This document shows positions 1-41,547 of a stretch of 41,547 bases of DNA, one piece after another. The translations under genes and the position numbers were made by a program. The notes beneath the pieces are model-generated. The model saw only the letters and a list, made by a program, of their open reading frames with translations. It was not told where the DNA came from and ran no database searches. Positions within the stretch are counted from its first letter, which is position 1, and each line of letters begins with the position of its first letter. The stretch is from an uncultured Planctomycetota bacterium (GTDB lineage: Bacteria > Planctomycetota > Brocadiia > CAIUPP01), in the NCBI GenBank assembly GCA_903901045.1, contig CAIUPP010000074.1, positions 1-41,547 of the forward strand, read 5' to 3'.

Positions 1-144
1 CGGAGCCTCCCCCAAGGGTCCGTCGCCCCCTTCGGGGGCTCTTAACGCCCGAAAAGCAACTTGGTCCCCACGACTCGCTTCGCTCGCCGTGGGCGACTGT
101 CTATCACCCCCTGCGGGGGTTCGCTGGATGATTTCAACAGAGCA
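1..144. repeat. Right half of an interspersed inverted-repeat element at the window edge
   Basis: This stretch ends at 132-144 with TTTCAACAGAGCA, the right terminal repeat of the element seen complete at 22761-22906 and 33371-33491. Inside it are short palindromes around 28-42 (a CCCCCTTCGGGGG core), 66-95 and 110-118. The first two reappear in reverse complement at 41469-41541, so the window begins and ends in opposite halves of the same repeat class. No coding potential is evident. Confidence 0.8.
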
Positions 145-11409: not shown

Positions 11410-11708
11410 CGGCGAAAGCGTTCACCGCGGAGACGCAGAGAACGCGGAGAACGGCAAGGCGGGGATAAGGAAACGGCGAGACGGGACAACGGAAACGACG
11501 GCAACGGGGCTCGCGCGGAGTCAGGGAGAACGCGGAGAACGGCAAGACGGGGATAAGGAAACGACGACGGCGCTCACCACGGAGGACACGGAGGGCACGG
11601 AGAACGGCTTGGCGGGTTAACGACGAGCCAGAGAGGAAGTCTTTCAGTTCTCAGTTCTCAGTTCTCAGTTCTCAGTTCTCAGTGTTCTGCATTCTGCATT
11701 CTGCATTC
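11410..11708. repeat. Composite intergenic repeat block
   Basis: This 299-bp gap between convergent genes holds no ORF of note. From 11421 it contains purine-rich GGAGAACGG-type units, including a ~37-bp direct duplication (11438-11474 and 11526-11562). Five units of the heptamer CAGTTCT follow at 11645-11682, then three units of TTCTGCA at 11685-11705. The array ends immediately before the nnrE stop codon on the minus strand. Confidence 0.85.
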
Positions 11709-22725: not shown

Positions 22726-22760
22726 GCTGTTTCAATCCTTCCAGTGTCTGAGTCCGTTTC

Positions 22761-22906
22761 TGCTCTGTTGAAACCATCGCGATGGCGTGTCGCTCTTCGT
22801 GTGGTCGAGGTGGGGACACAAAACTTTCCTTTGGAAAGTATTGTGTCCCCACCGGCCCGTGTCCCCACCGGCCCGGCCCGCCAACAGGGATGATTTCAAC
22901 AGAGCA
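22761..22906. mobile_element. MITE-like element with 13-bp inverted ends and 9-bp flanking repeats, copy A
   Basis: TGCTCTGTTGAAA (22761-22773) and its exact complement TTTCAACAGAGCA (22894-22906) bound a 146-bp element. The 9-bp sequence GTCCGTTTC lies on both sides (22752-22760 and 22907-22915), as expected for a target-site duplication. Inside is a long hairpin (22809-22829 with 22833-22853, one mismatch, 3-base loop). There is no transposase, so it would be moved in trans. The ends resemble those of the IS903 group of the IS5 family, which also makes 9-bp duplications; this comparison is from memory. Confidence 0.85.
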
Positions 22907-22923
22907 GTCCGTTTCCTTCATCC

Positions 22924-23668: not shown

Positions 23669-24049
23669 TCCGTTGCTCCTCGGCGGTCAATGACATAACA
23701 ACGCCAGCAGCGTAGCCGAGGGAGGGGAGGCGTGTCAACGGGAACGTCGAACGGCGAGAACTGAGAACTGAAAGAGCGAGAGCATCCGGGGGCAGCGCCA
23801 CATGCCCGAGTCAGGGTTGGAGTGTCAACCCGATGCAGCGTGACGAACAAGAGCAACGTGCGCGATGAGTCACAGGGAGTCCCCCATGAACCGCTCGCCA
23901 GGCCGGCTTCGTTATCTCTCCTTCTCTCAGTTCTCAGTTTTCAGTTTTCGTCGCGTGCCGAACACGACCTGAGGTCGGAGCTCCTTCGTCGGCCAGCGGC
24001 CTCCTCAGGATGACGCCCCGAGAGGGCGTCGTTGTTCTGCACTCTGCAC
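23669..24049. other. Intergenic region between recJ and radC with heptamer repeats
   Basis: No gene is visible. A possible minus-strand promoter for radC lies at 23709-23738 (TTGACA at 23733-23738, TACGCT at 23709-23714, 18-bp gap). AGAACTG heptamers occur at 23756-23774, TCTCAGT/TTTCAGT heptamers at 23925-23950, and TTCTGCACTCTGCAC at 24035-24049 runs into the recJ stop codon. A small palindrome-rich patch lies at 23965-24030. Confidence 0.7.
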
Positions 24050-31524: not shown

Positions 31525-31625
31525 GGCAACTCCCTCGCTCTCCCCGCGTCAGCGGAGGTGGGGACACAATACTTTCCTTCAGAAAGTTTTATGTCCCCGC
31601 TGCTCCCTGAGATGGCGATCTTCAT
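31521..31625 (-). CDS. 34-codon bridging ORF made by a palindrome insertion
   Basis: ATG at 31625 overlaps the GT2 stop (ATGA). The frame begins MKIAIS, a copy of the GT4 start, runs through the inserted palindrome and ends in TGA overlapping the GT4 ATG. It probably has no product role, but translation through it would keep ribosomes coupled between the two glycosyltransferase genes. It has no family match I recognise. Confidence 0.4.
   Translation of the reverse strand: MKIAISGSSGDIKLSEGKYCVPTSADAGRARELP
31525..31608. mobile_element. Inserted palindromic segment flanked by a 17-bp direct repeat
   Basis: The 17-bp sequence GAGATGGCGATCTTCAT lies at 31508-31524 and again at 31609-31625, on either side of 84 bp. 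That segment contains a hairpin (31557-31577 with 31581-31600) related to the one inside the elements at 22809 and 33419, but in opposite orientation and without the TGCTCTGTTGAAA ends. Confidence 0.75.
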
Positions 31626-33312: not shown

Positions 33313-33370
33313 CGGGCTGTTCTTCTGTTCTGGCACGCGCTCTCCAATGCGAACGGAATCGATACGGAAT

Positions 33371-33491
33371 TGCTCTGTTGAAACCATCGTGACGGCGTGT
33401 CGTTCTTCCCGTGGTCGAGGTGGGGACACAAAACTTTCCTTTGGAAAGTATTGTGTCCCCACCGACCAACCGGGAAGGTTTCAACAAAGCA
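33371..33491. mobile_element. MITE-like element with inverted ends and 9-bp flanking repeats, copy B
   Basis: TGCTCTGTTGAAA (33371-33383) and TTTCAACAAAGCA (33479-33491, one change) bound a 121-bp element. The flanks are ATACGGAAT (33362-33370) and ATACGGGAT (33492-33500), matching at 8 of 9 bases. The inner hairpin (33419-33463) is the same as in copy A. The element sits between the predicted promoter at 33504-33532 and the kinase gene. Confidence 0.85.
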
Positions 33492-33503
33492 ATACGGGAT
33501 TGA

Positions 33504-36066: not shown

Positions 36067-36075
36067 CTAGAAGCT

Positions 36076-36173
36076 GTTTCATAACTGATTTTGGCCGAAA
36101 TCCGCATGCTGTAACTTACTTAGATGCAATAGGTTAACAATTGCCTGCCCTGCCATTTTGGCAGTTATGAAAC
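36076..36173. repeat. 98-bp inverted-repeat element upstream of the unknown gene
   Basis: GTTTCATAACTG (36076-36087) and CAGTTATGAAAC (36162-36173) are perfect 12-bp inverted ends around an AT-richer middle. A small hairpin lies at 36150-36164. No clear target duplication is seen. It may be another small mobile repeat. Confidence 0.6.
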
Positions 36174-36212
36174 ATGCTGTATTGCCCATTCGCTATTCTT
36201 CTGTTTTTCCCG

Positions 36213-39568: not shown

Positions 39569-39750
39569 AATGACGAATGACGAAGCCCGAATGACGAAGG
39601 AATGCCTCAATTCTCCAATCTCCCATTTACCCAATATTCTTTTGGAGGCATGGCAGTGAACCTGGGAGATGAGGGATTGGGACAGCCGCAGGATTGTGCT
39701 TGGCGTTTCGGGCTTTCCTTCGTCATTCGGGCTTCGTCATTCGTCATTTG
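39569..39750. repeat. Inverted ATGACGA heptamer arrays
   Basis: Units ATGACGA, ATGACGA, AGCCCGA, ATGACGA run at 39571-39600; the exact reverse complement pattern occurs at 39718-39748. They flank about 115 bp with no gene. The gap 39454-39884 otherwise holds only the FHA promoter and the HU terminator. Confidence 0.8.
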
Positions 39751-41408: not shown

Positions 41409-41547
41409 TGCTCTGTTGAAACCATTCTGTTCCGTTCGTCAGGCCGCGAAGCGGCCGTCGGACTTTAGCCCACGGCGAGCGAAGCGAGTCGTGGGGGCAA
41501 GTCGTACCCAATCATCGAGCCCCCGAAGGGGGCGACGGAAACTCCCG
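41409..41547. repeat. Left half of the interspersed inverted-repeat element at the window end
   Basis: TGCTCTGTTGAAA (41409-41421) begins a copy of the element whose inner palindromes (41469-41497 and 41519-41541) are the reverse complement of those in 28-95. The copy is cut by the window end. The 9 bases before it are AGACAGCTT. Confidence 0.8.

Follow-up and report, generated by a model that had tools for sequence, protein, structure and literature searches.

A MITE family with 9-bp target duplications in a Planctomycetota genome and its nesting in the tips of an IS427-like element

Two copies in the window and their surroundings

The window, which is the whole stretch of DNA analysed (41,547 bp), corresponds to the complete contig C74 of a genome of 4.77 Mb in 154 contigs, hereafter the host genome. 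It contains two short elements, copy A and copy B, that share 13-bp terminal inverted repeats (TIR1). Copy A has a URO-D-like gene on one side and radC on the other, and copy B is upstream of a Kdo/WaaP-kinase-like gene, at a distance of 58 bp, with a fasciclin-domain gene beyond that. Partial elements with the same ends are found at both limits of the contig, together with tips of a second repeat, TIR2. The features are the following:

1-144, minus strand: incomplete TIR1 element of the long class at the start of the contig, cut by the assembly, with TIR1 at 132-144
145-157: TIR2 tip AAAACGGCTTCTA outside the TIR1 element of the contig start
22752-22760, plus strand: left target duplication of copy A, GTCCGTTTC, 9/9 against 22907-22915
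22761-22773, plus strand: left TIR1 of copy A, TGCTCTGTTGAAA
22774-22893, plus strand: body of copy A, with arm A, hairpin module, a small internal duplication (CCGTGTCCCCACCGGCC) and arm B
22809-22853, strand unassigned: hairpin module H of copy A, GGTGGGGACACAA...TTGTGTCCCCACC
22894-22906, minus strand: right TIR1 of copy A, reading TTTCAACAGAGCA at the element end
22907-22915, plus strand: right target duplication of copy A, GTCCGTTTC
31555-31609, strand unassigned: solo hairpin H, without TIR1
33362-33370, plus strand: left target duplication of copy B, ATACGGAAT
33371-33491, plus strand: copy B, 121 bp, TGCTCTGTTGAAA...TTTCAACAAAGCA, TIR1 at both ends with one mismatch
33419-33463: hairpin H of copy B
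33492-33500, plus strand: right target duplication of copy B, ATACGGGAT, 8/9
36068-36181, strand unassigned: second-family element with TIR2 ends, not interrupted by TIR1; ends TAGAAGCTGTTTCATAAC at 36068-36085 and GTTATGAAACATGCTGTA at about 36164-36181
41409-41547, plus strand: incomplete TIR1 element of the long class at the end of the contig, with TIR1 at 41409-41421 and a TIR2-like tip GAGACAGCTT outside it

The initial annotation had described copy A (22761-22906) as having perfect 13-bp inverted ends and a perfect 9-bp flanking repeat, and copy B as having the same ends with one change and an 8-of-9 flanking repeat. Both descriptions held when the sequence was read again, with 13/13 and 9/9 matching positions in copy A and 12/13 and 8/9 in copy B. 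The body of copy A has no apparent coding capacity, both copies fold into strong hairpins around a central palindrome (z about -10), and the search of the window against Rfam gave no matches.

Copy A also has a small tandem duplication by its hairpin (22846-22875), and likewise the copies at loci L041, L045 and L113. These duplications, of CCGTGTCCCCACCGGCC or CACCGGCC, look as if they came from replication slippage at a hairpin. In addition, the window contains palindromic or tandem intergenic repeats that are unrelated to TIR1, at 39569-39748, 11640-11700 and 23742-23953, which are of the GAATGACGAAGCCC type and the TCAGTTCTCAGTTC type.

TIR1 elements in the host genome

The 18-base end TGCTCTGTTGAAAYCATC, allowing up to 2 mismatches, was found at 78+73 places in the host genome vs 0 for the reversed control, and a 14-base end with 2 mismatches was found at 89+87 places vs 18 for the control. 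The family thus comprises roughly 75-150 ends, at about a hundred sites in the assembly. Each of the 57 relatives compared, none of them from the genus of the host, has 0-2 matches to the 18-base end, and in this sample the expansion is private to the host lineage. The elements measure 121-146 bp in the window and mostly 100-380 bp elsewhere, and they are non-coding and bounded by inverted repeats of 13 bp, as MITEs are.

At least three kinds of interior are found between the TIR1 ends. In the class of about 130 bp the interior consists of arm A, hairpin H and arm B; in a longer class, of roughly 190-380 bp, there are other hairpins (CCCCCGCAGGGGG, CCCACGGCGAGCGAAGCGAGTCGTGGG and GAGCCCCCGAAGGGGGC); and the third kind has stems of the GTCCCGTAGGGAC type. 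The long class is found at many contig ends, both ends of the window included, which suggests that its repeats broke the assembly. This MITE family would explain many contig breaks in the genome, and the limits of the window are probably assembly breaks of this sort.

Regarding the target duplications, we read 123 distinct TIR1 ends with their flanks, L033 and L035 probably being the same copy, present at two contig ends. Among the 26 two-ended pairings in the sampled loci, the direct repeat was 9/9 in 10 cases (copy A included), 8/9 in 3 (copy B included) and 7/9 in another 3, while the numbers expected by chance for 26 pairings are about 0.0001 (9/9) and 0.003 (8/9 or better). The perfect duplications of the 10 copies are ten different sequences and therefore represent independent insertions. 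Perfect abutting repeats of 5-8 or 10-13 bp were absent from the 13 copies with 8-9/9 flanks, which serves as a consistency check only, these copies having been selected at length 9.

The genome-wide search of the ends with scoring of the flanking 9-mers, which the initial annotation had proposed, therefore extends its claim of a non-autonomous element with 9-bp target duplications from two copies to the genome, since 13 of the 26 pairings reach 8-9/9 with diverse sequences, far above chance. The initial annotation had also held that copies lacking the 9-bp repeats would speak against the claim. Several two-ended copies without direct 9-bp repeats do exist, and many copies are one-ended, but these stand beside the 13 with duplications and are accounted for in part by being one-ended or by a position between the inverted tips of another element.

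Nesting in TIR2

That other element is the one with TIR2 ends. Of the 123 TIR1 ends sampled, 64 (about half) adjoin TIR2 at its first 10 bp, reading TAGAAGCTGTTT or, for the opposite side, TATGAAACAGCTT. The rate expected at random is 0.0003-0.0005, and 48 of the 64 are on the TAG-side and 16 on the CAT-side. TIR2 (TAGAAGCTGTTTCATAAC) represents the ends of a second mobile family, an IS427-like IS5. It occurs uninterrupted at 34 places in the host genome, one of them at the 3' end of a fragment, on contig C110, of an IS5-family transposase matching NF033580 (transpos_IS5_3). In several intact TIR2 MITEs the 2-bp flanks match (TA, GA or TC), and a target duplication of 2 bp is listed for the IS427 group (PMC3281130).

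Some TIR1 copies located in TIR2-like sites keep direct repeats (L015, L033 and L092 at 8-9/9, L078 at 7/9), and at L015 the TIR2 element that was hit has its opposite end intact, which provides an internal empty-site control. Four other copies (L018, L042, L087 and L093) are bordered on either side by TIR2 tips in inverted orientation (8-9/9), in most cases followed outwards by TA. The same nesting is seen in Roseomonas: at L225, in Roseomonas mucosa, the insertion is inside ACCCCGTTT of a TIR2-like end, and its neighbour is a complete IS5 element that has the same TIR2-like ends and a transposase matching NF033580. The Roseomonas elements L261 and L263 lie between inverted tips, and L209 and L212 have inverted flanks of different sequence. 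Other Roseomonas sites have no TIR2 (L229/L262/L266/L272 and L268), and therefore the preference for TIR2 is not absolute. We also observed that in the four host copies and in L261, L263, L209 and L212 inverted repeats of 8-17 bp, perfect or nearly so, stand in place of the direct 9-bp repeats; no solo palindrome GAAGCTGTTT(N0-16)AAACAGCTTC was found as an empty site for the copies with inverted flanks.

These composite copies could be read in another way, in which TIR1 is the inner part of a terminal repeat of about 22 bp, [TA]GAAGCTGTTTTGCTCTGTTGAAA, belonging to what is really a TIR2-type IS5 (IS427-like) MITE with a 2-bp duplication, so that the 9-bp flanks would be its end and not duplications. 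The TAGAAGCTGTTT-like outer flanks of 48 of the 123 ends agree with this, as do the four copies with both outer tips inverted, but it is possible for a minority of composite copies only. The perfect direct 9-mers of ten copies have ten sequences, mostly without similarity to TIR2, full IS elements in other taxa are bounded by TIR1 alone and have 9-bp duplications, and the flanks of copies A and B are direct, mutually unrelated and unlike TIR2, which refutes it for these two. We consider this reading very improbable for the family.

Partner transposase and proposed mechanism

Scanning genomes with the 18-base end led to a Gemmataceae contig (L199) with an IS of 987 bp that has TIR1 ends and a 9/9 target duplication (CGCCGGAGT), and with a separate MITE of 102 bp on the same contig, also with TIR1 ends and a 9/9 duplication (ACCGGCAGT). 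The first 18 bases of copies A and B are identical to the left end of this IS, and related ISs are found at L191 and L201. As a second route, we searched for transposases with the L201 protein and then scanned for ends without assuming the TIR1 sequence. In this way, 9/9 repeats next to TGCTYTGTTGAAA-like ends were recovered for L225, L220, L221 and L222, and a variant end, GGCTCTGTAGAAA, in L223. IS5-family elements of about 0.95-1.0 kb with ends TGCTYTGTTGAAA and 9-bp duplications are thus present in Gemmataceae, other Planctomycetota genomes and Roseomonas, and the duplication is 9/9 in L199, L220, L221, L222, L223 and L225. A length of 9 bp is the value of the IS903 group and not that of the IS427 group (PMC3281130).

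The partner transposase matches PF01609 at 2.2e-20, its best model is NCBIfam NF033579 (transpos_IS5_2), with E 1e-31 to 1e-39, and the D, D and E residues are conserved, as in the IS5 family. The likeness to the IS903 group lies in this same model, in the 9-bp direct repeats and in the similar ends (GGCTTTGTTGAATAAATC in the IS903-type vs TGCTCTGTTGAAA in TIR1). However, the single-ORF partner members score 126-134 bits, below the model cut-off of 140, whereas the IS903-type control scores 338 bits; the identity to the IS903-type transposase is about 23%; and the partner is slightly shorter. Several members (L201, L210 and L261) also differ in that two overlapping reading frames encode the transposase, an arrangement reported for the IS427 group (PMC3281130). 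We therefore describe the partner as an IS5-family element working like the IS903 group, a divergent relative for which we do not claim membership.

Relatives of this transposase were found in 11 of 392 genomes of the phylum and in 24 plasmids, mostly of Roseomonas. The search of the host assembly, which is incomplete, gave 0 matches at E<=10 and no IS with TIR1 ends; PF01609 detected nothing there beyond an IS1380-like protein and a fragment of IS427-like type, and PF13737 gave 0 matches, likewise 0 for the control. The full IS with the same ends that the initial annotation had recommended looking for was thus found in other genomes (L199, L201 and L225), which gives the MITEs an autonomous partner, but not in the assembly of the host. 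The suggested IS5-family, IS903-like transposase acting in trans gains support, since IS5 elements have the same ends and 9-bp duplications and NF033579 is their best model.

It might be argued from the lack of an IS with TIR1 ends in the host assembly that some other DDE family with 8-10-bp duplications mobilised the elements, the match to the IS5-group ends being convergence. This seems extremely improbable to us given the 18 bases identical to the Gemmataceae IS end, the equal duplication length and the IS and MITE with these ends on one Gemmataceae contig.

We also considered as partner an IS630-like transposase that starts in TIR1 elements at contig ends (L026/L105 and L074/L106), and rejected it because these look like separate insertions at TA, with ends resembling TAGAGC...CTTTCAT, and because the target duplication of IS630 elements is TA rather than 9 bp. 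At L105 (start of contig C36) and L106 (start of C128) the transposase starts inside the TIR1 elements, apparently inserted at TA. Related short elements, with ends near TAGAGCACTTTAGGCTTTCAT, occur at L062.

Regarding hairpin H (GGTCGAGGTGGGGACACAAAACTTTCCTTTGGAAAGTATTGTGTCCCCACCGGCCC), it is an independent genome-wide repeat present at roughly 115 places, with 113 forward and 120 reverse half-matches in the host genome vs 0 and 1 for the control. It has sharp edges and occurs alone, within TIR1 elements and within TIR2 elements. Many one-ended copies start with TIR1 and stop at the H edge, after GGCCC or TCGACC, with host DNA directly next, and H itself may constitute a unit of insertion or recombination. 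That the copies are passively spread, REP-like H units, perhaps moved by a RAYT-type Y1 transposase, with TIR1 as only a part of the hairpin repeat, is hardly credible although H does occur solo and Y1 transposase genes do exist in the host genome, since TIR1 elements without H have perfect 9-bp duplications (L010, L092 and L116), which refutes it for the mobility of TIR1 and rules out a RAYT/REP origin of the whole element, no H lies within about 2 kb of any Y1 (RAYT) gene in the host genome, and 9-bp duplications are not expected from HUH/Y1 transposition.

We infer that an IS5-family, IS903-related DDE transposase of the partner type very probably moved the TIR1 MITEs in the host. It would recognise, cut and join the ends TGCTCTGTTGAAA, and its staggered cuts of 9 bp would give rise to the 9-bp duplications. 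A donor and a MITE together in one cell were seen on the Gemmataceae contig only, and not in the host genome. Since the assembly has no autonomous element, the transposase would have been lost, be missing from the incomplete assembly, or have been present in the host only for a time. The ends of this high-copy MITE family are now named, and both a length of duplication and a partner transposase are assigned to it.

The TIR2 element resembles the IS427 group in that NF033580 is matched by both the fragment on C110 and the neighbour in Roseomonas, and in the 2-bp flanks of several TIR2 MITEs. It would not be the source of the transposase of copies A and B but would provide their favoured target. 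TIR1 elements may prefer the first ~10 bp of TIR2, and insertion in a TIR2 tip, followed by recombination or deletion, would leave a TIR1 element between TIR2 tips. We favour a route in which both ends of one TIR2 element receive an insertion and the two TIR1 elements then recombine. The reasons are that insertions at a single end are present, as intermediates, and that the interiors vary between composites. Owing to these different interiors, the composites would have formed more than once. The TAG-side excess (48 to 16) points to retention or amplification of the composites or of deletions within them, and the TA outside most composites is weakly consistent with the TIR2 transposase also moving them, as it may. 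As a general rule, that one IS5 group, ISs and MITEs alike, homes to a fixed position about 10 bp inside IS427-like ends in at least two phyla, and that the hybrids, in which TIR2 tips lie outside and TIR1 ends inside, can be moved by either transposase with 2-bp or 9-bp duplications, is a tentative and rather doubtful proposal. If the targeting of the tips of another IS is real, it would offer a simple testable case of target selection in the IS5 family and of elements gaining second mobile ends.

As a MITE, the family is of a known kind. Like other bacterial IS-derived MITEs, it is short and non-coding, with inverted ends, target duplications, high copy number and an autonomous partner in other genomes, but it differs in having several unrelated interiors within the same ends, independent hairpin repeats inside, and many TIR1 copies inside the tips of another IS. 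The unusual part is this repeated nesting of the ends of one IS group in the tips of another; a limited search of the open literature found no description of such nesting of IS5 groups. IS5075 and IS4321 prefer to insert into the terminal inverted repeats of Tn21 (PMC8269217), and the two-group nesting resembles them as a mobile element that prefers the terminal inverted repeats of another transposon. However, the families are others: those are IS1111-group (IS110-family) elements, whereas here an IS5-family DDE element and its MITEs would be involved, the target is an IS427-like IS5 tip and a 9-bp duplication is made.

Finally, two loci of the Verrucomicrobia MAG JABDHJ01 (L189 and L198) contain MITEs of 146 bp with TGCTCTGTTGAAATCATC ends and flanks of 7/9 and 8/9, so that ends of this kind are present in another phylum as well.
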